In this document: positions 26,012-38,673 of the stretch, in pieces
How the letters are laid out: each line of letters opens with the position of its first letter
How positions within the stretch are numbered: the first letter of the stretch is position 1
Virus record (IMG/VR): IMGVR_UViG_3300032895_000009
Span: 1-40,709 of that record
Reading direction: 5' to 3' (one strand)
Length of the DNA stretch: 40,709 nt
Source: a virus
Position numbers and translations under genes: made by a program
Notes under the pieces: model-generated
Database searches by the model: none
What the model was told of the DNA's origin: nothing
What the model saw: only the letters and a program-made list of their open reading frames with translations

Positions 26012-26473
26012 ATGCTCAGCCGTGCACAAGCCGTCGAGGTCGCCCGCTCCTTTCTCGGCACGCCCTACCAGTTGCGCGGGCGCATCAAGGGCGCTGGCCT
26101 CGACTGCGGGACGCTCCTGGCCGAGTACCTGATCGAAATCGGCCGCTTCCGGCTCGAAGAGCTCATCGACCTGGGCTTTTATTCGAATGACTGGTTCCAC
26201 CATACGACCAAGGAGCGCTATCTGGCCCAGCTGATGCGCGCCGGCGCGCTGGTCGCCGAGACCATCTGCCGGGGCGGTCAGCGGCCGGAATCTGGCAATC
26301 TGGCGCTCTTTAAGGCGATCGGCTCGAAACGCTTCAACCACGGCGCCATCATCACCGCGTGGCCGATGGGAATCGCCGCTCTCCAGAAGGGCGTCCTCGA
26401 AGTCGATCTCACCTCGCACTGGCTCACCGCCCAGCGCCCGATGGATATATTCAATCCGTGGGGTGCTAATTGA
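26012..26473 (+). CDS. NlpC/P60-type peptidoglycan hydrolase of the tail tip
   Basis: 153 residues from ATG 26012; upstream GAGGAACC is somewhat far. LSRAQAVEVARSFLGTPYQL, then GAGLDCGTLLAEYL with the catalytic Cys, and KRFNHGAIITAWPMG with the catalytic His, in standard NlpC/P60 order. In GTAs and related phages this gp14-type protein sits in the tail tip and cuts peptide cross-links as DNA is injected. Next gene starts in a TTGA overlap. The GD-V-x-L-F step appears as ESGNLALFKAIG. Confidence 0.88.
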   Translation: MLSRAQAVEVARSFLGTPYQLRGRIKGAGLDCGTLLAEYLIEIGRFRLEELIDLGFYSNDWFHHTTKERYLAQLMRAGALVAETICRGGQRPESGNLALFKAIGSKRFNHGAIITAWPMGIAALQKGVLEVDLTSHWLTAQRPMDIFNPWGAN

Positions 26474-29400
26474 GTCACTACTTCAAAGGTCAGGCGCAAA
26501 AGCAGCCCACGGCCCTCGGCTCTCTTCTTCAGAGCTCGGCTTACGGATCCGCGATCCCGGTCGGCTATGGAATGACGCAGTCGGTGCTGCTCGCCATCTG
26601 GGCGGCGAACCTTCGCCAAGGCGGCTCGATCAAGAAATTCAAACAGTTCAAGAAGGGCATCACCGATTACGTCGAGGATATCGACTTCCTGCTGGGGCAT
26701 AACCCGATCCGCGGCGTGAACCAGCTGATGTATAACGGCGGCCTGATCCCGCTGACCTTCACGTCCCAGAGTTTCAGCTATGACGGCTCCGGCTCAGTCG
26801 AAGTGACCGACGATCATTTCTATGGCGTCATCGCCGTCACCTGCGAAAAGGAGTACAGCTTCGACGTCGACGACTTCGGCAGCACCAGCGGCCCGCAAAC
26901 GCTGACCGGCACCTTCGAGGTCCCGCTCTGGAATGCGCTCGAAAATGGGCCGGATCCGACCGACAATTCGGCCACCCGGAACTTCCCGTTCTGCTATAGC
27001 TGGACGCCGCCCTCTTACGGCGTCGCTGGCGACGGGCCTACAGTTTCGATCGAGGATAATGGGCAGCTCGCCGGGCTCACCGTGAAGGTCTACTACACGC
27101 AGCTCATGGATGCGACGTCTTTTCAGGCACCCATCACGAAGTACCGGATGTTCCTCGAAGCGCAGCTCGGCTCGGGCAATGAGTACTCCGATGCGGACCG
27201 CAGCGACCAGCAGATCATCTATCCGCAGTTCGCCGGCCTGGGATCGACCGAGATCGATCTCGGCGCGAGCGGCGCCCTCCCCCAGATCAATCCCGAGGTC
27301 GCCTTCAAATGGGGCATCTATTCGACCGGCGATGCAGATTTCATGGATATGGTCGAGGACATCTTCAAGAGCGGCCTGGCTCAGGCCGCTCTTGATGCAG
27401 TACCCAACTACACCCAGCAGGAGCGCGGCCTCTCAAGCTACGATCTGCCCGGCTGCGTCCAGAAGAAGGTCGGCAACGGCTCTTACGATCGGCCGGTTAC
27501 CGAGGGGAATTTTCTGGTCGTCGTCGCCACCAATCCTTCGGGATCAATTGCGAGCGACGCGATCTCAGATACTCAGGGAAACAGCTGGACGCCCGTATTT
27601 GAAAGTGATTTGTCCTACCAGGTCTGGTACGCCCAGGCGAACGCTTCAGGCGCGAACGCCGTCACCGTCTCAGGTCTGCCTGCCGGGGCCGGCCCATTCA
27701 CGATCCTTGGTCCTCCCACTGGCGGATGGGGACCGCCCTCCTCGGGTGGCGGCAGTTGCTTTGGCTCAGACTTTGCGGCATGGAGTCTGGTCGTCTCCCA
27801 AGCCGGCGTGAGCGGTGAGAACGGCTGCACTTTCAATTCCGCCCAGACCTGTTCGAGCGGCCCTTGCAGCATGCCGACGCTGCCGGCAAACGCGATCATT
27901 TCCGGCATCTACGCCTATGCCGATCCGACCTACACCGGCAGTAATGGCGAAGCCTACTTCATCATCACCACGCCGAGCGGCGGACATACCTTCGTCGGTG
28001 GCCCTGAGAGCTATCTGATCGGCACTGATCCGTCTGTGATCCCCGAATGCAGTTTTGAGTTCTTTGGGCTCGCGACCCTTCCGGCCGCGCCCGGGGCGGA
28101 TTACACCTATGGCGCCACCTGCACAAGCTACGGCATCAAGGTGGTCTATTATCTTTCCGAGCTCATCCAGTTCGAGGTCGCCGGCGCCGACACGGTCGAC
28201 CAGGTGGTCAAATCGACCGGGTCCTCGGCGACTCTTGCGACCACCAACCAAGCGCCATTCCCGGCTTACACGCTCAATCTCGGCATCTCGATCGGCGGGA
28301 GCGGGACGCCGCTCCCCGTGCCGGCGAATTGGAAGGCCACGCTCCCGCAGTCGAATTACAACGCCGCCCAGTCGGGCGCGGTCCTCTCGCCGCTGGTCAC
28401 TGCGATCGAGCGGACCGTGCGCGTGCCGGCGAGCCTCACGGTCCAGCAGACGTTGACCGATGGGACCGCTTTTTGCGCCGTCGCCTTCAAGGCCACCACA
28501 CCCTCGAGTTTTCCGCTGCCCCTGGGCGATTACATCGATAAGGCGTCGTTCGACCTGGTGCGCCAGCAATGCCGGGCGAACGGCCTCTATGGCTCGCTGG
28601 CGATGACCTCGCAGTCTTCGGGATCTGACTGGCTCAAGTCGCTCTTCGCCGCGGCCGACGCCGCAGCCGTTTACCTCGGCAACAAGCTCTTTGCGCTGCC
28701 CTATTCCGAGGTCTCGACGGCCGGCAATGGTGCTTTCTACACCGCGCCCACAGCCGCGGGGCCGATTGCCAGCCTGGTCGCCGGTGCCGGCCAATCCCCG
28801 AACGCCGACTTTGTTGACCCGCCCGAGCTCGCCCCAGCTGACCGAATCGATCTTCCCAACGTCCTGCAGCTTCAGATCATCTGCCGGGAAAACAACTATA
28901 ACCAGCTGGTGATCACGCAGCCCGAATCGGCGACTCTCTCTCTCTATGGGATGCGCAAGGCGGATCCTGTTGTGATGAACTGCGTGCAGGATCCGCTGGT
29001 CGCCCAGATGCTTCTGGGAATCATGGTCCGGCGCTCGCAATATGGGGGCGATGTCTACAGCTTCACTCTCAGCCCGCGGTGGATGCTGCTCTCGCCGATG
29101 GACCTGGTCGAGATCACCGATGTCCTCGCCGGTATCGTCGGCGTCCCCGTGCGGCTGACAAGCGTGGCGGAACAGGAGGACCTCTCGCTGGCCTGCGAGG
29201 CGGAGCCGTTCATCTACGGGATGTGTGCGCCCACGCCCTACACGGCTGCGATCCCTGCGCCAAATCCGCTGGACACCAATGAAAGCGCGGGCGACGTGAA
29301 CGCGCCCCTGATCTTTGAGCCCGTGCCTCAACTTTGCGCCGAGCAGAATCAGGCGCAGCTCTGGCTAGTGATCTCTTCGAGCTCGGCCGATTACGGCGGC

Positions 29401-30057
29401 TGCCAGGTCTACGTCTCGACAGACGGCGGCTCGAGCTACAACGCGGCCGGACCGCCCTTGAACTCAAATGCGATCATGGGCCTGCTTACGGCCGTTTGGC
29501 CGGCGGCGAACGATCCTGACACCACCAACAATCTCTTTCTCGACATGAGCGAATCAGGAGAGCCGGTGCAATCGATCAGCCTCCAGGAGGAGAACCAGTT
29601 CCTGCTGCCCTGCATCGTCACGGGCGCCGACATCACCATTGAGAACAACGGCACCGCTGTGGCTTCCATTTCGCTGCCCGACTTCGAGAATGATGGGACG
29701 CTGGTCTGTGAGCCATCGCTCGCCTTCAATTACGAACTCATGGCCTACGCCGTCGCCACCCTGACGAGTACGAATGCCTATGAGCTGATGGCCACCGGGA
29801 GCGGCAACGAGCTCCGGCGTTCCGTCTACGACGCCCCGAACACGGGTGGCGTCGGGATCACCCATTCGGTCGGCGAAACCTTCGCAGTGTTGCCGCCCGA
29901 CGGTCAGGGAATTTTCAAGATCAACATGCCGTCCCAATGGGTCGGCGTCGAGGTCTTCTTCAAAATCCTCAGCTTCAACAGTTTCGGCAACGCGCTCCAG
30001 AGCCTGAGCGACGTGCCGGCCTACAGCTACACGCCGACCGGCGTGCCGTATAGTTAG
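26470..30057 (+). CDS. Giant tail tip (hub/host specificity) protein
   Basis: 1,195 residues from TTG 26470 overlapping the hydrolase stop (TTGA). The N-terminal part (SSAYGSAIPVGYGMTQSVLL, LMYNGGLIPL) and the part after about 690 (SFDLVRQQCRANGLYGS..., LPNVLQLQIICRENNYNQLV, WMLLSPMDLVEITDVLAGIV) match GTA gp15/J-type tail tip proteins. About 340-680 is an accessory region. Its first module (EGNFLVVVATNPSGS, SYQVWYAQANASGANAVTVS) resembles one in the tailspike at 30576; a second is Cys-rich (SCFGSDFAAWSLVV, NGCTFNSAQTCSSGPCSMPT). The C-terminus carries further FN3-like strands (ISSSSADYGGCQVYVSTDGG). Confidence 0.85.
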   Translation: MSHYFKGQAQKQPTALGSLLQSSAYGSAIPVGYGMTQSVLLAIWAANLRQGGSIKKFKQFKKGITDYVEDIDFLLGHNPIRGVNQLMYNGGLIPLTFTSQSFSYDGSGSVEVTDDHFYGVIAVTCEKEYSFDVDDFGSTSGPQTLTGTFEVPLWNALENGPDPTDNSATRNFPFCYSWTPPSYGVAGDGPTVSIEDNGQLAGLTVKVYYTQLMDATSFQAPITKYRMFLEAQLGSGNEYSDADRSDQQIIYPQFAGLGSTEIDLGASGALPQINPEVAFKWGIYSTGDADFMDMVEDIFKSGLAQAALDAVPNYTQQERGLSSYDLPGCVQKKVGNGSYDRPVTEGNFLVVVATNPSGSIASDAISDTQGNSWTPVFESDLSYQVWYAQANASGANAVTVSGLPAGAGPFTILGPPTGGWGPPSSGGGSCFGSDFAAWSLVVSQAGVSGENGCTFNSAQTCSSGPCSMPTLPANAIISGIYAYADPTYTGSNGEAYFIITTPSGGHTFVGGPESYLIGTDPSVIPECSFEFFGLATLPAAPGADYTYGATCTSYGIKVVYYLSELIQFEVAGADTVDQVVKSTGSSATLATTNQAPFPAYTLNLGISIGGSGTPLPVPANWKATLPQSNYNAAQSGAVLSPLVTAIERTVRVPASLTVQQTLTDGTAFCAVAFKATTPSSFPLPLGDYIDKASFDLVRQQCRANGLYGSLAMTSQSSGSDWLKSLFAAADAAAVYLGNKLFALPYSEVSTAGNGAFYTAPTAAGPIASLVAGAGQSPNADFVDPPELAPADRIDLPNVLQLQIICRENNYNQLVITQPESATLSLYGMRKADPVVMNCVQDPLVAQMLLGIMVRRSQYGGDVYSFTLSPRWMLLSPMDLVEITDVLAGIVGVPVRLTSVAEQEDLSLACEAEPFIYGMCAPTPYTAAIPAPNPLDTNESAGDVNAPLIFEPVPQLCAEQNQAQLWLVISSSSADYGGCQVYVSTDGGSSYNAAGPPLNSNAIMGLLTAVWPAANDPDTTNNLFLDMSESGEPVQSISLQEENQFLLPCIVTGADITIENNGTAVASISLPDFENDGTLVCEPSLAFNYELMAYAVATLTSTNAYELMATGSGNELRRSVYDAPNTGGVGITHSVGETFAVLPPDGQGIFKINMPSQWVGVEVFFKILSFNSFGNALQSLSDVPAYSYTPTGVPYS

Positions 30058-30066
30058 GGGTGATTC

Positions 30067-30609
30067 ATGACCATCGCGTCGACGCTCAACTTTTCGCCGA
30101 CCACACCGGCCCCGCCGAGCGGGAACGTCAACAACGTCCCCCAGAACGACGGCGGCGCGCCGACCTGTAATCAGTCTTTCTATACGCCGCTGATGACCGG
30201 CGATTCCGGATCCGGAGGCGCGGCCGGCAGCGTCCCGGCACCGCCTTCGGGCTCTGCCGCAGCGGGGAAGTTCCTGAAGGCGGACGGGACCTGGGAGCTG
30301 CCGCCAGGGACTGGCAGCGGGATTCTGGCGATCAATGCGCAGGGCACCGATTACACGGCCGTCTCTGGCGACGCCGGCGCGATCATTCAGGAAAATTCGG
30401 CCTCTGCTGTCACCGTGACCTTGCCGACCAGCTTCGCCACGGGCTTCAGTCTATGGGTCAAAAACATCGGCGCGGGCGTCTGCACCGTCCAAGCCGCGAG
30501 CGGGAATATCGACGACGAGGCATCGATGGCCCTGAGCCAGTGGCAGGCGATGCAATTCTATTGGGATGGTGCGCTATGGCGAGCTCTAAGTCAGTCTTTG
30601 GCGGTCTAA
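30067..30609 (+). CDS. Tail fibre-type adaptor protein
   Basis: 180 residues. After a Pro/Gly-rich N-terminus (TLNFSPTTPAPPSGN) it has PAPPSGSAAAGKFLKADGTW, a repeat-like anchor motif of many fibres, then a beta-rich end (AINAQGTDYTAVSGDAGAII, ASAVTVTLPTSFATGFSLWV, MQFYWDGALWRAL). The pattern matches short fibre or tailspike-attachment proteins that link the hub to receptor-binding proteins. It overlaps the tailspike gene by 34 bp in another frame. Confidence 0.65.
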   Translation: MTIASTLNFSPTTPAPPSGNVNNVPQNDGGAPTCNQSFYTPLMTGDSGSGGAAGSVPAPPSGSAAAGKFLKADGTWELPPGTGSGILAINAQGTDYTAVSGDAGAIIQENSASAVTVTLPTSFATGFSLWVKNIGAGVCTVQAASGNIDDEASMALSQWQAMQFYWDGALWRALSQSLAV

Positions 30610-33131
30610 TTCTTCTCCTGGCCGCGGTGGCATCGGCCCAGGTCACGCCTCCCGCCAATGGCGGCACGGGCACCGGGACGGCCCCCACGGCCGGTCAAAT
30701 CCTGGTCGGGCAATCGAACGGGAAATACCTGCCGAAGACGGCGACGGGCAGCTGCACAATCTCCTCGGCTGGCGCCTTCAGTTGCTCCGGCGGAGGCGGC
30801 GGCACGCCGGCCAACATCATCTACGCAAGCGCGGGCAACGGAACCGTTGCCGGCTGCGCACTCAACACGAATCTGCTCACCGGCGGTGGCACAGATGCAA
30901 CGACTTGCCTGCAGGCGCAGCTCGATTGGCTCGGCTCGAACGGCGGCGGAGAGTTGATTCTCAATGGACCGGCGCTGATCTCGAACGCTACTGTGGGGAC
31001 AACGAATTCGGTGGACGGCAATGTCCAGACCTCTGCTCTCCAGACCCATTCGAATGTGACCATCTTCGCACCTACGGGCGGCGGCGTCTTCCTTGCTGCA
31101 TCTTCCGATTGCCTGATGCTCGGCAATAACATCACCGGCAACCCGTCGGCTATGTTCCAAACGAATATGCGCGTGATCGGCGGGTTTTGGAATGGCAACA
31201 ATGCGAACCAAAGCAAATACGAGCAGGGAAACTCCAGCAACATCGATGTTTTCGGATTCTGGTTTGGCGGTTTCAACGGCCTCGAAATCAGCGGCGTCAC
31301 TCTTTACAACGTCGCGACATTCAACTTCACCATTTCGAACGGCGAGAATTTCATCATGGCGAACGACAGCATGATTGCCACGACAACCGTGCCCGGAGAC
31401 GCGCATAACCAAGACGGCATTCATCTCTGGGGCACGCTATCGAACGGCGTCATCAGCAATTTTTCCGATACTGGCGGGGATGATGATCCCTTCGCCTTCA
31501 ACACGGATGAGGGGGTGGGAAACTACGACGACGGCAGCAGTGCGTGGGAATATCAGCGTCTCCCGAACTCTGGAGGAGCAATCTCGAATATCCAGGTAAC
31601 AGGCTTGACCCTCGATACTCCGAGCGACGCGGGCAGGTTCTACGGCGTGACCGCAACCGGCGGCACGCCGAGCCTGACAAATATTTCTCTCCGGAATGTC
31701 TCTGGCAGCGTGGCGGCAGGGATGCTCAATTCGGGCCTTACGACTTGCTCAAATATTCTCATCGAGAATTGGACGCTCGCTGAGAGCGGGAGCATTACTC
31801 CACCGAATTTGACGGGCTGCTCAAGCACCGCCGGTCAGCAGGGCTACGGAACTCTTCAGGAGGGGCAGGGCTCTTCTGGCGGCCTGTGGAACTTCCTGGA
31901 TCCGAGTCTTGCTAGTGGAGGGGATGTCGGTTTCATGATCGGAGAACAGCCGGGCTCTGGAGGAAATGCCGGCACGTTTACTTACAACGACCCTTCGAGT
32001 GGCGCTGACTATTGGGAGCTCGCCCACCAGGGCAATTCGAATGTCTTGCATTTTTACTCGAACGGTGATCTCAGCCTTTCCGGATCGGACGACGGCACTG
32101 CTTTCAGTCTTCCGGCTGGCGGCGGCATCAAGCAGCACAGCGGTGGTTCAAGCTCGGATTGTTACGCCACGGACGGCAGCACGCCGGCGTGCGGAGGCAG
32201 CAGTTCTGTCAGCGTGAACGGCTCCTCGGTTTCGAACCCCAACTTCAACGGGACGACGCCTTCGGTCTCTGGCGCTACCGGGATCAACAACGTCTACCAG
32301 GTCAGCTCCTCGAACGTGAGCAGCTACACTCCGGTAGCGACGGGAAGCGCGCCCGGTGTGATCAAACCCGACGGGACGAGCTGCACGGTGACGAGCGGCG
32401 TTCTTACCTGTACCGGCAGTGGCGGCTCGACCTCGCCGATGCCAGTTTCAAACTGCAATGGACGCGACCAAAGCGGTTCCAGCTTGAGCTCGATAGAAAC
32501 AGCATCTTCCTGCGCTGTCACGAGCGGGGAACTGATTGTGGCGGCTTGCGGAGCAGGTCCAAGTTCAAGCATCACCTTCACCCCGAGCGACACGCTCTCG
32601 AATACCTGGAATTCGACGACTTCGCAAGGAGTGTTCGGCGGAACAGACATCGAAGCGCAAGTCTTTTGGGCTATAGCGTCCAGCAGCGGAAGCGACCGGA
32701 TTACATGCACTCTCGGGACCGCTTCTCCTTATCCGGCCGTCATTGCGACCGTCTTTTCCGGAGCAGGCAGCACGCTCAACGGCTCCGTGAACTTGAACAA
32801 CGCAAGTTCCTCAACTACCTATCCAAATTTTGGCGTTCTCAGCACAACGCAGAGAACGCTCGACGTGGTTTGTCTCAGGGTTAATTCCGCTGGCTACACC
32901 TACCAGCCGCAATGGATGGGCATTGGCCGAGGCGAGATGGCGTCCGTTGATACGGGCAACTTCGGCGGTAACGGCTCCGGGGCGAACACGCAGACGCTCG
33001 CTTGCGCTTACGGTGTTGAACCGCTTGCTGATGCAAATTTGAGCGGTTATCTCACTTACCAGACGTGGCCAGGAGGAAGCCCTGAAAGTGGGCTGTTCTA
33101 CGTTGGAGCCATGCTGGCGTTCAACTACTAA
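30576..33131 (+). CDS. Beta-helix tailspike with N-terminal signal peptide
   Basis: 851 residues from ATG 30576; the frame is open further upstream but over the previous gene. The N-terminus MASSKSVFGGLILLLAAVAS followed by AQ is a standard Sec signal with an A-S-A cleavage site, unusual for a virion protein. Next comes the fibre motif ANGGTGTGTAPTAGQILVGQ. About 100-430 has Asn-rich repeats ending in DGIHLWGTLSNGVISNF and GGDDDPFAFNTDEG, a pectin-lyase-like right-handed beta helix of polysaccharide depolymerases with acidic active-site candidates. The C-terminal 230 residues form a beta-sandwich module (SGELIVAACGAGPSSSITFT, DIEAQVFWAIASSSGSDRIT). Probable receptor-binding or capsule-degrading protein. 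Confidence 0.75.
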   Translation: MASSKSVFGGLILLLAAVASAQVTPPANGGTGTGTAPTAGQILVGQSNGKYLPKTATGSCTISSAGAFSCSGGGGGTPANIIYASAGNGTVAGCALNTNLLTGGGTDATTCLQAQLDWLGSNGGGELILNGPALISNATVGTTNSVDGNVQTSALQTHSNVTIFAPTGGGVFLAASSDCLMLGNNITGNPSAMFQTNMRVIGGFWNGNNANQSKYEQGNSSNIDVFGFWFGGFNGLEISGVTLYNVATFNFTISNGENFIMANDSMIATTTVPGDAHNQDGIHLWGTLSNGVISNFSDTGGDDDPFAFNTDEGVGNYDDGSSAWEYQRLPNSGGAISNIQVTGLTLDTPSDAGRFYGVTATGGTPSLTNISLRNVSGSVAAGMLNSGLTTCSNILIENWTLAESGSITPPNLTGCSSTAGQQGYGTLQEGQGSSGGLWNFLDPSLASGGDVGFMIGEQPGSGGNAGTFTYNDPSSGADYWELAHQGNSNVLHFYSNGDLSLSGSDDGTAFSLPAGGGIKQHSGGSSSDCYATDGSTPACGGSSSVSVNGSSVSNPNFNGTTPSVSGATGINNVYQVSSSNVSSYTPVATGSAPGVIKPDGTSCTVTSGVLTCTGSGGSTSPMPVSNCNGRDQSGSSLSSIETASSCAVTSGELIVAACGAGPSSSITFTPSDTLSNTWNSTTSQGVFGGTDIEAQVFWAIASSSGSDRITCTLGTASPYPAVIATVFSGAGSTLNGSVNLNNASSSTTYPNFGVLSTTQRTLDVVCLRVNSAGYTYQPQWMGIGRGEMASVDTGNFGGNGSGANTQTLACAYGVEPLADANLSGYLTYQTWPGGSPESGLFYVGAMLAFNY

Positions 33132-33162
33132 GAGAACTCGAAAATCCTTGAGGGAGAGAGCG

Positions 33163-33543
33163 ATGAGACGAATTTCTGCAATCACAGTTTTTCTGGCCAT
33201 AGCCATCACTGCTGGATGCTGCGCGCAAATGCCTCTGCCGGCTGGCACAGCCTACGAGGTCAACGTCACCTGGGATGCACCGTCCAGTTCGCCTGATCCG
33301 GTCGCCGGATACAACGTCTACCGCTCGCCCGCTGGAGTTTCCGCCTACTCCCTCCAGGCGAACGTCGCCAGCACCCAGTTGGCCTATACTGACTCGAACG
33401 GCATCGCCCAGGGCCAAAGTTGGGATTACATCGTCGAGAGCGTAGATGCGGCGGGGAATGAAAGCGTGCCATCAAATGTGGCTTTCGTAGCGATTCCCGG
33501 AGGAACGGCTCCGGCCTTGGGAACCTTGGTTGCAAGCTCATGA
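33163..33543 (+). CDS. Exported FN3-domain protein, probable lipoprotein
   Basis: 126 residues from ATG 33163 behind AGGGAGAGAGCG. MRRISAITVFLAIAITAGCC is a basic-hydrophobic signal ending in a lipobox (ITAGC), so the mature protein may be lipid-anchored. The rest is one fibronectin type III domain: AYEVNVTWDAPSSSPDPVAG, YNVYRSPAGVSAYS, then WDYIVESVDAAGNESVPSNV. It ends PALGTLVASS, a tail nearly repeated in the next gene (LGTLSASS). FN3 domains bind carbohydrates or proteins. Located between tailspike and lysis genes; an exported partner of the tailspike or a cell-surface conversion protein are the options. Confidence 0.75.
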   Translation: MRRISAITVFLAIAITAGCCAQMPLPAGTAYEVNVTWDAPSSSPDPVAGYNVYRSPAGVSAYSLQANVASTQLAYTDSNGIAQGQSWDYIVESVDAAGNESVPSNVAFVAIPGGTAPALGTLVASS

Positions 33544-33554
33544 AGGAGATACCG

Positions 33555-33965
33555 ATGAGGAAATTCTGTTCTGGCTTAACCTTTCTGCTCTTTGCGTTGC
33601 CGATGCTCCACGCCCAGGCCGCGCTGCCTGCGGCGACGCCGACCCAGATTGCCGTTCCGTGGACGGCGGGAACCTGCCCCACGGGAGATACCTGCGCCAC
33701 AAGCGTCTTCGCCTGTACGGGCACGGCCGCAACCTGCACGGACACGAGCGCGACCTGGGCAGCCGTCGTTTCGCAGTCGGCTGCTGCTTCGGGAACCTTC
33801 AACGATACGGCGGTCACGGCAGGTGACAGCTACTGCTTTGCCGCTGTGAATTACTGGACGGCGAGCGGTACAACCTCGAATGGTCCGCCGAGCGCCATCT
33901 CCTGCGCTACAGTCCCTTTAGCGGGGGGAGCGGCAACTCTGGGAACCCTTTCAGCGAGTTCCTGA
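33555..33965 (+). CDS. Exported FN3-like, Cys-rich protein
   Basis: 136 residues from ATG 33555, set by AAGGAGATACC. MRKFCSGLTFLLFALPMLHA followed by QA is a Sec signal peptide. The mature part (AVPWTAGTCPTGDTCATSVF, TFNDTAVTAGDSYCFAAVNY, SNGPPSAISCATVP) has the strand pattern of a fibronectin III domain with four to six cysteines that could form disulfides after export. It ends LGTLSASS like its upstream neighbour, implying gene duplication or a shared docking tail. The TGA is followed one base later by the next gene's GTG. Confidence 0.7.
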   Translation: MRKFCSGLTFLLFALPMLHAQAALPAATPTQIAVPWTAGTCPTGDTCATSVFACTGTAATCTDTSATWAAVVSQSAAASGTFNDTAVTAGDSYCFAAVNYWTASGTTSNGPPSAISCATVPLAGGAATLGTLSASS

Positions 33966-34464: not shown

Positions 34465-34839
34465 ATGTTTCCTCCCGAATCGCTTCCGAGCCTGCCGCTG
34501 ACCATTCCGCAAGCCTTCGCGCGAATGGAGGGTTGGTATGCCCGGGGGCAGGTACCCAACCGTCCGCAGCGGAACAACAATCCGGGCGACCTTGAATTCG
34601 GTCCGTTCGCGCAGAAGTTCGGCGCGAGCTCGGGCGATCCGCGCTTCGCCATCTTCCCTACGGCACAGGACGGCTGGACAGCCCACATTTGCCTGTTCGG
34701 AAGCCCGGAGTATGAAGGACTGACCATCGAGGAAGCGGTCAACAAATTCGCGCCCGCCCCCGAAAACAATGTGGAGCAGTATACGGCCTGCGTGTGTTTC
34801 TGGACCGGCAAGCAACCGACTGATCTGGTGAGCTCATGA
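34465..34839 (+). CDS. Putative peptidoglycan hydrolase (lysozyme-like)
   Basis: 124 residues from ATG 34465 behind GGAGACCA. AFARMEGWYARGQVPNRPQR followed by NNNPGDLEFG, FAIFPTAQDGWTAHICLF and YEGLTIEEAVNKFAPAPENN is the pattern of the NNPGN/xxFAxFxxxxxGxxAL family found in phage endolysins and virion-associated lysozyme-like proteins. The Glu in MEG is a candidate catalytic acid. No signal peptide. With neighbouring membrane proteins it could be the endolysin, although a structural function cannot be excluded. Confidence 0.6.
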   Translation: MFPPESLPSLPLTIPQAFARMEGWYARGQVPNRPQRNNNPGDLEFGPFAQKFGASSGDPRFAIFPTAQDGWTAHICLFGSPEYEGLTIEEAVNKFAPAPENNVEQYTACVCFWTGKQPTDLVSS

Positions 34840-35303: not shown

Positions 35304-35846
35304 ATGAACCGCAGATACTTCATCAAGCTGTGCTCCGGCCTCGGAGCCGCGCTCGCCATCGGTGCGCCGAGCTTCTTCATTGAGGGCTGTGCGATCAATG
35401 TCACGGACGCGATCAACACCGTGCTCAACTCGGCTCTTGCGATCCTCAAGGTTGCCGAACCCGGCGCGGCGTGGACAGGCGACCTGGGTGCAGCGATTGC
35501 CGCTCTCGAACAGGCGGAAACGCAGTGGCAGGCAGGCGGCGCGGCGACCCTCGTTATCGATGCCCTGAACACGGTCGAAGCGGTACTCGCGGTGATCCCG
35601 GCGACGGCGGTTTATTCGCCGCTCGTCGATATTCTTGTCGCGGGCGTCGAAGCGGTGATGGCGGCCTTCGGCGTGACTGCGACCGTAACTCCGGCGGTGC
35701 GTGCGCGAATTGTCAATTCGCCCCACTACGGCAAAGTTGCACTCAAGGGACCATCCTTCCTGCATCCGACATGGCGGGGCAGTTACCGCGCTCAATGGAA
35801 CGCTGAAGCGAAGGCTCTCAATCTTCCCGCTGCGGAACTCAAGTAG
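35304..35846 (+). CDS. Exported lipoprotein with Tat-like signal
   Basis: 180 residues. The N-terminus MNRRYFIKLCSGLGAALAIG has a twin-arginine motif (NRRYFIK), a moderately hydrophobic stretch and a lipobox-like IEGC at 26-29. This layout is that of Tat-exported lipoproteins in bacteria and is unusual in a phage. The mature part is Ala-rich helical (NTVLNSALAILKVAEPGAAW, AALEQAETQWQAGGAATLVI) and ends in a Tyr/Trp-rich tail (SFLHPTWRGSYRAQWNAEAK). Possibilities are a spanin-like outer-membrane lysis protein, superinfection exclusion or envelope modification. A Sec route is also possible. Confidence 0.65.
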   Translation: MNRRYFIKLCSGLGAALAIGAPSFFIEGCAINVTDAINTVLNSALAILKVAEPGAAWTGDLGAAIAALEQAETQWQAGGAATLVIDALNTVEAVLAVIPATAVYSPLVDILVAGVEAVMAAFGVTATVTPAVRARIVNSPHYGKVALKGPSFLHPTWRGSYRAQWNAEAKALNLPAAELK

Positions 35847-37349: not shown

Positions 37350-38303
37350 TTAAATGACGATAGTTGGAAATTGCCGCACGCGAAGCTCGGCGGGAAAGGA
37401 ATCGAAATTCTTGAAGGATGGCCAATTTGCCTGGGAGCCCTGTTTCATGAAAAACGGCACGCCGGCGGCCGCGCACTGATCGCACAAGCTCCGCGCCCAC
37501 TCCGGATGCATCGGCCGCGCCCCCGCTCCGCTCTCGCCGCCACAGATGACCCATTTCAGACCCGGCGCATGCTTGCAATCCTGATAGCCGTCATAGACCC
37601 AGAGGCGCAGATCGATCGGTCCCAGCAGCGGCTCGGCCGAGATGAAGCGCACCGCCGCCGGCGTCTTCAGCAGCAGAGGGATGCGCTCGTCCGCCGTGGC
37701 CTGGTTCTCGACGCTCACGCCAACCCAGACGTTCGGCAGCGGCCATGGCCGCGCGGCCATAGATACATGCAGGCCGTCTCTGTTGATGGCGACGCTAATC
37801 GGTTTGCCCTCGATCCACTGAGCCCAAGTCCGATCGCGTCGGCTGATTTCGGCGTGTGCAAGCGCCTCAGCTTCGTCGTAGATCCTCACCGGTTGGTAGT
37901 GGCTCATTTCTGGTGTACGGTACCGCAGCGCGGCCTGGGGCCGCTTCGTCAGCACCTGGAACATGTGCTGCGGCGAGAGCGCCATCACCGCGAAGATCTT
38001 GTCCCGCATCTCATCCGTCACGTTCTCGTGAAACAGGTCGCTCATCGAATTCACGAAGATACGCCGCGGCGCGCGCCAGCACAGCGGGTCGAGCAGATGC
38101 TTCTCCACGAATTCGATCTTCCCCGTCCAGCTCGCGTGTCCGTTCTTGAGCACCGCCAGGCCCGCGTAGGGCTGCCCCGGGCCGCTGAAGCGCAGTGCCT
38201 GCGTCTCGGCGTAGCAGTGCCGGCAGCCTTCGCTTACGCGGCTGCAGCCGCGGATTGGGTTCCAGGTCGCATCCGTCCATTCAATGCCCGTTTTTGTTCC
38301 CAT
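37350..38303 (-). CDS. DUF5131 (phage Gp37/Gp68) protein
   Basis: 317 residues from ATG 38303, set by AAAAGGAG upstream; the frame also opens further up but inside the neighbouring gene. The opening TGIEWTDATWNPIRGCSRVS, EGCRHCYAE with C-x6-C-x2-C, and IFVNSMSDLFHENV are diagnostic of the Gp37/Gp68 family. The triple Cys recalls radical-SAM metal sites, and relatives are genomic neighbours of three-Cys-motif partner proteins in defence-like loci. Later conserved parts: VLTKRPQAAL, NVWVGVSVENQATADERIPL, RFISAEPLLGPIDL and WVICGGESGAGARPMHPEWA. Role in phages unknown; a modification enzyme is the usual guess. Confidence 0.93.
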   Translation of the reverse strand: MGTKTGIEWTDATWNPIRGCSRVSEGCRHCYAETQALRFSGPGQPYAGLAVLKNGHASWTGKIEFVEKHLLDPLCWRAPRRIFVNSMSDLFHENVTDEMRDKIFAVMALSPQHMFQVLTKRPQAALRYRTPEMSHYQPVRIYDEAEALAHAEISRRDRTWAQWIEGKPISVAINRDGLHVSMAARPWPLPNVWVGVSVENQATADERIPLLLKTPAAVRFISAEPLLGPIDLRLWVYDGYQDCKHAPGLKWVICGGESGAGARPMHPEWARSLCDQCAAAGVPFFMKQGSQANWPSFKNFDSFPAELRVRQFPTIVI

Positions 38304-38673
38304 CGCTTTTCTCCTTTTGCGGTTCAGCCTCTGCCAATGCCGCATCCACTGCATCGAGCGCCGCCTCTAGCGGCTCGATATAACCGCGCTCCTGTTCACT
38401 TAGCTGCGAATAGTCGTAGGTGTCGCCCTCTTTGCATGGCGGACAAAAAGACCAGCACCTGCATTGCAATTCCTCATCGAGAATGGGTTGGGCGAGCCGG
38501 AGCGCTGCGATCAGTTGCTCGCGTGGAATCTGGCCCCGATCGAGGACGCTGGCGAGCGAGAGCGAATGATTCGTGGCCGCGCAGATCGGGCAGGCGTCGC
38601 CGCTCCAGATCACCTGATCCGTCTCGCAGAAAAAGGCTTGCTGAAGCGCAATGCAGCCAGATCGCTCAGCCAT
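38281..38673 (-). CDS. Zinc-binding small phage protein
   Basis: 130 residues. DACPICAATNHSLSLASVLD then RCWSFCPPCKEG are two Cys pairs of a zinc-binding domain. The C-terminus is a charged helix (YIEPLEAALDAVDAALAEAE) and a basic tail that overlaps the DUF5131 gene start by 23 bp. The C-P-x-C-x-x-x-x-x-x-S-L-x-x-V-L pattern is frequent in phage proteins without function. Confidence 0.65.
   Translation of the reverse strand: MAERSGCIALQQAFFCETDQVIWSGDACPICAATNHSLSLASVLDRGQIPREQLIAALRLAQPILDEELQCRCWSFCPPCKEGDTYDYSQLSEQERGYIEPLEAALDAVDAALAEAEPQKEKSDGNKNGH

Follow-up and report, generated by a model that had tools for sequence, protein, structure and literature searches.

An adsorption module with predicted export signals

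The window analysed here, that is the whole 40,709-nucleotide stretch of IMG/VR virus record IMGVR_UViG_3300032895_000009, is a 40.7-kb virus record of a GC-rich, siphovirus-like phage with terminase, portal, head and connector genes, and its adsorption region encodes three consecutive proteins that start with predicted Sec signal peptides. The gene order in this region is a J-like gene, a small gene at 30067, a spike gene, the genes of an FN3 protein and of a Cys-rich protein, an endolysin-like gene at 34465 and membrane genes. The three open reading frames (ORFs) in question are present at the positions assigned to them in a preliminary description of this DNA, all on the + strand. The spike or fibre of 851 amino acids (aa) is encoded at 30576..33131 (ORF and gene model) and its predicted signal peptide, MASSKSVFGGLILLLAAVASA (30576..30638), is followed by QVTPP, with the cleavage before Q22 predicted by a heuristic score and the host preference for A↓Q (the arrow marks the cleavage site). 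The single FN3-domain protein of 126 aa at 33163..33543, recognized as such by Pfam fn3, an AlphaFold2 (AF2) model, Foldseek and its relatives, is predicted to be exported by the signal peptide MRRISAITVFLAIAITAGCCA (33163..33225), which alignments place before QMPLP and which ends either in the atypical lipobox ITAGC or at CCA↓Q. The Cys-rich protein of 136 aa at 33555..33965, FN3-like according to its AF2 model, weak Foldseek matches and aligned relatives, has the heuristically predicted signal peptide MRKFCSGLTFLLFALPMLHA (33555..33614) preceding QAALP, or alternatively one extending to 33620 (HAQA↓A).

Signal calls were based on a home-made score of the n-, h- and c-regions combined with comparative evidence, not on SignalP, and ORFs were defined by a codon gene model. 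By this heuristic all three proteins start with a basic n-region, a hydrophobic core and an AxA-type site, in agreement with the preliminary description. Application of the same score to all genes revealed signal peptides in 17/43 genes lying up to 4.5 kb downstream of J as compared to 4/71 upstream of it (Fisher p=1e-5). Because of this dependence on position and the retention of signals in diverse relatives, the signals of the window proteins are not attributable to chance; from the sequences, those of the adsorption module are almost certainly genuine, and export of the window spike is highly probable. Export had been described as unexpected and the signals as credible, and export is indeed the natural reading of signals that are conserved in position. 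The list of three proved incomplete, since a fourth predicted exported protein is encoded at 35304.

Cleavage sites, divergence and detachability of the signals

The host of this phage very probably belongs to the Acidobacteriaceae, since J homologues occur in 15/300 genomes in a family-wide search and the closest relatives of the window FN3 protein are Acidobacteriaceae proteins. Among host signal peptides taken from an Occallatibacter genome, 25/42 carry Q at +1 and 41/42 carry A at -1, and the signals of phage fibres and FN3 proteins nearly all end x↓Q; thus, the phage sites match the host signal peptidase. In an alignment of five prophage fibres the signal itself is divergent, Q21 is the first invariant column, conservation extends over the following 110 residues and the C-termini vary, and this combination of a divergent signal with a conserved mature start is repeated in 17 more viral contigs. 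In L129:8389, a prophage fibre with no in-frame upstream signal, this N-domain recurs and over 98 aa is 61% identical to that of a signal-bearing fibre. As the N-domain also occurs without a signal, a signal was gained or lost on a conventional fibre, and by sequence comparison the signal is a detachable addition to the fibre N-domain. These N-domains are phage-type and were found in no other INPHARED phages.

Signal-bearing fibres are common, not universal, downstream of J, occurring in the majority of related Acidobacteriaceae prophages: they are present in L071 (994 and 671 aa), L073, L074, L076, L077, L078 (745 and 982 aa), L080 and L082, and those of L070, L075 and L081 lack a signal. Fibre architecture is evident in several of these proteins, with a collagen shaft and many tail-fibre PHROG matches in L078:8311, a GDSL esterase domain in L078:6034 and tail-fibre PHROGs in L034. 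The layout of the window, with a small protein followed by a signal-type fibre start at an overlap of about 30 nt, is shared by L071 and by L009, which is the closest viral relative by J and the only viral contig retrieved by a pattern search for J relatives; the fibre bodies are unrelated. The fibre start of L009 is hydrophobic and falls under the heuristic threshold, and the next gene has a clear signal. Signal-bearing fibres contain 1.81% Cys versus 0.70%, which is at most suggestive of disulphides.

The spike of the window had been designated a beta-helix tailspike. A PDB search revealed a weak similarity of residues 232-344 to GH28 exopolygalacturonase (E=0.075), so the evidence for a beta-helix is weak. 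The spike has no Pfam or PHROG family and no match in viral contigs or INPHARED. Its position after the tail tip fits a fibre or tailspike, and a conserved N-domain with a variable C-terminus is found in the fibres of related phages.

Signals in cultured phages

Tunturi 1 is a plaque-forming podovirus of Tunturiibacter (PMC11924767), and its record (PP887698) was compared together with that of Tunturi 2 (PP885685). The tail block of Tunturi 1 encodes five signal-bearing proteins, namely gp12, gp13, gp14 ('tail spike'), gp16 and gp17 ('virion structural'), and one other signal-bearing gene was found beyond it among the 50 genes tested. Portal, head and other tail proteins are without signals, the deposited annotation uses the same starts, and no obvious signal-less fibre is present in the examined part of this genome. 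L034, which carries the FN3 and Cys-rich genes, has its signal and N-domain in common with Tunturi 1 and 2 (40% over about 114 aa), the Tunturi partner being gp12. Tunturi 2 gp14 is annotated 'pectin lyase'. No signals were observed in the examined fibre genes of Tunturi 3, 4 and 5, nor near J in control phages of the J family from the proteobacterial hosts Acinetobacter and Brevundimonas (annotated starts) and Pseudomonas (gene model). Signal peptides are not mentioned in the Tunturi paper (PMC11924767).

The FN3 and Cys-rich pair and its C-terminal tails

Adjacent FN3 and Cys-rich genes, both with signals, are present in eight further distinct viral contigs (L002, L003, L006, L007, L008, L034, L037 and L040), and in the window, L002, L006 and L034 they lie next to receptor-binding or fibre genes. 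Of the trio in the preliminary description, the pair thus recurs in other viral contigs. The near-identical ends noted earlier are exact: the FN3 protein terminates with LGTLVASS (33517..33540), which is absent from host FN3 domains, and the Cys-rich protein with LGTLSASS (33939..33962), modelled by AF2 as a beta strand (residues 128-135). No third window protein ends with an LGTLxASS-type tail. In other phages the FN3 and Cys-rich tails read SFSGATT and SFSGATS (L002), GTLTGTTT and GTLSGATS (L003), IGTLHAT and LGTLSAT (L037), and RPTVTTSP and RPTVNLNR (L006), so that tails are alike within each phage and different between phages; the true pairing outdid almost every permutation (6/100,000), and within one cluster it ranks 1 of 24. 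The earlier suggestion of a shared docking motif agrees with this coupling, by which the tail resembles a common docking element, and a strand-exchange dock of the pair via the tails is possible, if speculative, on the modelled strand.

Pfam fn3 matches the FN3 protein at E=1.8e-4 with 22.1 of 25 bits, under the curated cut-off, and its AF2 model displays a confident FN3 core (pLDDT >90) without strand A and with a floppy tail, with FN3 matches in Foldseek. The Cys-rich protein has no Pfam match; its AF2 model is a beta-sandwich (pLDDT 76) with weak FN3-type Foldseek matches (E>0.07). Both proteins hence appear from the models to be single FN3-type domains, which makes the proposed duplication plausible, although their whole-sequence similarity is too low for proof.

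The FN3 protein had also been described as lipoprotein-like because of ITAGC, which is not supported: against the consensus [LVI][AST][GA]C the TAGC motif is atypical, the lipobox Cys is missing in all other FN3 relatives, where alignments reveal a signal-peptidase-I-type site before a Q that is kept when the Cys is not, and a conserved lipoprotein was accordingly rejected. For these reasons cleavage at CCA↓Q is judged at least as likely as at ITAGC. The Cys-rich partner has a good lipobox (SGC, VGC or AGC) in L006, L007, L008, L034 and L040, and none in the window and its cluster.

The same FN3 domain closes large surface lipoproteins of Acidobacteriaceae and is there 67-72% identical to that of the window. 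Complete host ORFs of this kind are 267 to 1736 aa long, contain repeats, carry the FN3 domain last and nearly all stop at ...IP or ...LP; the phage version consists of a signal, one domain and an added short tail. A single phage origin was rejected, since the tree does not allow one phage clade of FN3 domains (p-AU 0.015), which implies several exchanges; judged by sequence, phages took this FN3 domain from surface lipoproteins of their hosts more than once. Neither the FN3 nor the Cys-rich protein has an INPHARED match or was found in Tunturi 1 or 2. The alignment of the Cys family is too divergent for a scan of the collection, and the L034 Cys-rich protein gave one weak match, interrupted by stops, in 300 Acidobacteriaceae genomes.

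Several other arrangements were observed around these genes. In L007 (10386-12216) the gene of the Cys-rich partner is split by an IS200/IS605-like element with TnpA- and TnpB-like ORFs, the remainder of the gene lying after the insert. In L008 (9162-10440) the FN3 protein is fused in frame to one Cys-type domain and is followed by a second, full Cys-rich lipoprotein, which is a local duplication of the Cys partner. Proteins resembling papain-like cysteine peptidases (VRDQGxxGSCTGQS, recognized by eye only) adjoin the module in L006 (12103), L007 (12773) and L008 (10735). Among host loci, L017, L019, L016 and L023 encode tandem paralogous giant lipoproteins that combine repeat domains with an FN3 domain at the end and are candidate variable surface proteins or receptors for phages in Acidobacteriaceae, and an Acidobacteriaceae-like FN3 lipoprotein occurs on a 3.3-kb, probably misbinned contig (L026) of a Formivibrio (Betaproteobacteria) metagenome-assembled genome.

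Neighbouring genes

The J-like tail-tip protein (26470..30057, +), recognized by a Phage-tail_3 domain and a PHROG tail protein match, has no signal peptide, and comparison of its domains with the spike yielded a weak match (E=0.023). The small non-exported protein at 30067..30609 (+) overlaps the spike start by 34 nt and matches Phage_depo_C (E=2.9e-6); its N-terminus is related, by a short match only, to the motif that in prophage L070 heads a fused 472-aa fibre without a signal, and it is a possible virion-side adaptor. Near the lysis genes, the fourth predicted exported protein of the module (35304..35846, +) is a Tat-type lipoprotein (NRRYFIK...IEGC, with an RR-x-F motif and lipobox), whose family is kept in several phages of Acidobacteria, namely L006 (12786), L034 (12514; 30% identity to the window protein, E=2.6e-9) and L072 (6772, reverse complement). 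Elsewhere, a 613-aa protein with DDE transposase domain matches of the IS1/IS240 type occupies the left phage end (3-1841, -), a DUF5131 family protein is encoded at 37350-38354 (-; E=1e-83), and no integrase match was found among the window genes scanned.

Proposed mechanism and alternative explanations

The best explanation as a whole is Sec export of the adsorption module with a late-docking spike and an Llp/Cor-like pair, to which a probability of about 0.45 is given. The adsorption-module proteins would bear real, cleavable Sec signals matched to the host signal peptidase, and we infer that all three, the spike as well as the FN3-type pair, arise as precursors that are exported, cut back to an N-terminal Gln and, in view of their Cys content, perhaps linked by disulphides. 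The spike would be a host-recognition or depolymerase fibre that folds outside the cytoplasm and, when lysis opens the envelope, meets the cytoplasm-assembled virion and docks, possibly on the 30067 protein. The FN3 and Cys-rich pair would be retained in the envelope or at the cell surface, joined into a single complex by the shared C-terminal strand. It would mask the receptor by imitating the FN3 domain at the end of host surface lipoproteins and so keep infected cells and their remains from trapping phage, which is the mode of action of the Llp and Cor lipoproteins. Late-docking virion fibres are favoured because of the fibre architecture and the signal switch in L129, and because no obvious fibre that lacks a signal was found in the examined part of Tunturi 1; an envelope role of the pair is favoured because of lipoboxes, host-domain mimicry and the llp/cor-like location. 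Taken separately, joining of the spike to virions at lysis is put forward tentatively from the sequences, and a receptor-masking pair, by analogy, with similar reserve; doubtful as a complete scheme is a two-compartment assembly, in which fibres are exported by Sec, trimmed and possibly disulphide-bonded, the virion becomes complete only upon lysis and the pair protects the receptor until then.

A strong rival, itself held with considerable doubt, is that neither the exported fibres nor the pair ever become part of the virion and that they act as secreted or surface depolymerases of capsule or exopolysaccharide, as receptor blockers or as decoys altering the surface of the infected or lysogenic cell, while the virion binds the receptor by J or a different signal-less protein. 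In its favour, the signals read directly as export, the lipoboxes of the Cys partner in five phages imply membrane anchoring, the spike has a weak likeness to pectin-degrading folds, Tunturi 2 gp14 bears the annotation 'pectin lyase', and T5 pb5 supplied from outside blocks infection (PMC9586334). What speaks for virion fibres instead is that the signal-bearing proteins are built like fibres, with a conserved N-domain, a variable C-terminus and a collagen shaft, that one of their N-domains is common to a signal-less fibre, and that the examined part of Tunturi 1 offers no obvious signal-less fibre for the task. Capture of host surface-protein genes together with their signals, as recent, neutral or lysogen-serving passengers outside adsorption biology, would fit the 67-72% identity of the FN3 domain to host lipoprotein domains, its multiple captures and the richness of host control regions in exported proteins (52/240). 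This is nevertheless improbable, since the genes occupy the same tail-module place in many unrelated phages, keep the order of the pair and have coupled, phage-specific tails, since signal-bearing fibres occur in plaque-forming Tunturi 1, and since the fibre N-domains are phage-type.

The preliminary description had also raised use of the N-terminal helix for virion anchoring. The hydrophobic helix would then stay uncleaved and serve inside the virion for anchoring or trimerisation, and the position-conserved hydrophobic N-termini are consistent with it. This option is disfavoured and very unlikely, as the hydrophobic segment is free to diverge while the AxA↓Q site and mature start are conserved, the cleavage preference is that of the host, five partners have lipoboxes and a close fibre relative lacks the segment. 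Signal-like N-termini due to chance or wrong start codons might be suspected from the upstream positive rate of the heuristic (about 5.6%) and from the spike start, where the ribosome site is weak and lies in an overlap with the preceding gene; conservation across many loci, the invariant +1 Gln and the agreeing deposited starts of Tunturi 1 make such an artefact scarcely tenable, and for the group of proteins it is already refuted.

Several points weigh against late-docking exported fibres with a receptor-masking pair. Export, cleavage and virion association are read from sequence, and the virion role of the window spike, with no homologue detected in viral contigs or INPHARED, is assigned by analogy. 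No relationship in sequence connects the pair with Llp or Cor, PHROG and PDB searches gave no match to either, and the tail coupling ranks 7 of 24 in the other cluster, which is not significant. Absence of signals from orthologues, named in the preliminary description as evidence against export, was found for the fibres of L070, L075, L129 and Tunturi 3-5, and did not occur for the pair; as some Acidobacteriaceae phages have signal-less fibres, export is not needed for infection of this family. Host exported proteins are Cys-poor (0.41%), so the high Cys of the fibres does not reflect a host export habit.

Relation to known systems and significance

Tailed phages are generally assumed to put their tails and fibres together in the cytoplasm, and the classical fibres of T4, T7, lambda and P22 are not known to have a Sec signal. 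The fibres described here resemble collagen-shaft and beta-helix fibres and tailspikes of tailed phages, as relatives follow the tail tip, have a conserved N-domain and a variable C-terminus and match tail-fibre PHROGs and collagen, but they differ in a cleavable Sec signal before the N-domain and in high Cys. Tunturi 1 and 2 share a tail or spike gene block with the same kind of signal and the homology of the gp12 N-terminus to the L034 fibre, although they are podoviruses in which relatives of the FN3 and Cys-rich proteins were not found. The FN3 domain is up to 72% identical to that of large Acidobacteriaceae surface lipoproteins (L010-L032), which are, in contrast to the phage proteins with their signal, one domain and tail, long repeat-bearing ORFs without an added tail. 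Lom and Bor of lambda are lysogenic-conversion proteins that are exported and encoded at the tail or lysis end of the genome; they are unrelated by family search, and here the small exported proteins accompany an exported fibre. The pair is also comparable to the superinfection-exclusion lipoproteins Llp of T5 and Cor of T1 and phi80, which are small, exported, Cys-containing proteins encoded directly downstream of receptor-binding or tail-fibre genes, with five relatives of the Cys partner being lipoproteins and the cassette holding more than one exported protein; the FN3 fold of host-surface origin and two partners with a common C-terminal tail distinguish it. The llp and cor genes indeed sit downstream of the receptor-binding protein or fibre cluster (PMC9586334; PMC13164509).

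The literature searched, with partial coverage by which priority is not proven, offered nothing on point about tail fibres characterized by signal peptides or on Acidobacteria phages. For annotation pipelines the observations are a warning that a signal peptide does not exclude a phage fibre, and a cultured pair suitable for testing exists in Tunturi 1 and Tunturiibacter psychrotolerans X5P2. Lineage-wide fibres with host-matched cleavable signals, if true, would mean that some virion components arise outside the cytoplasm and join the particle at lysis; alternatively, phages of a dominant soil phylum would secrete receptor-binding proteins as a layer that modifies the cell surface.

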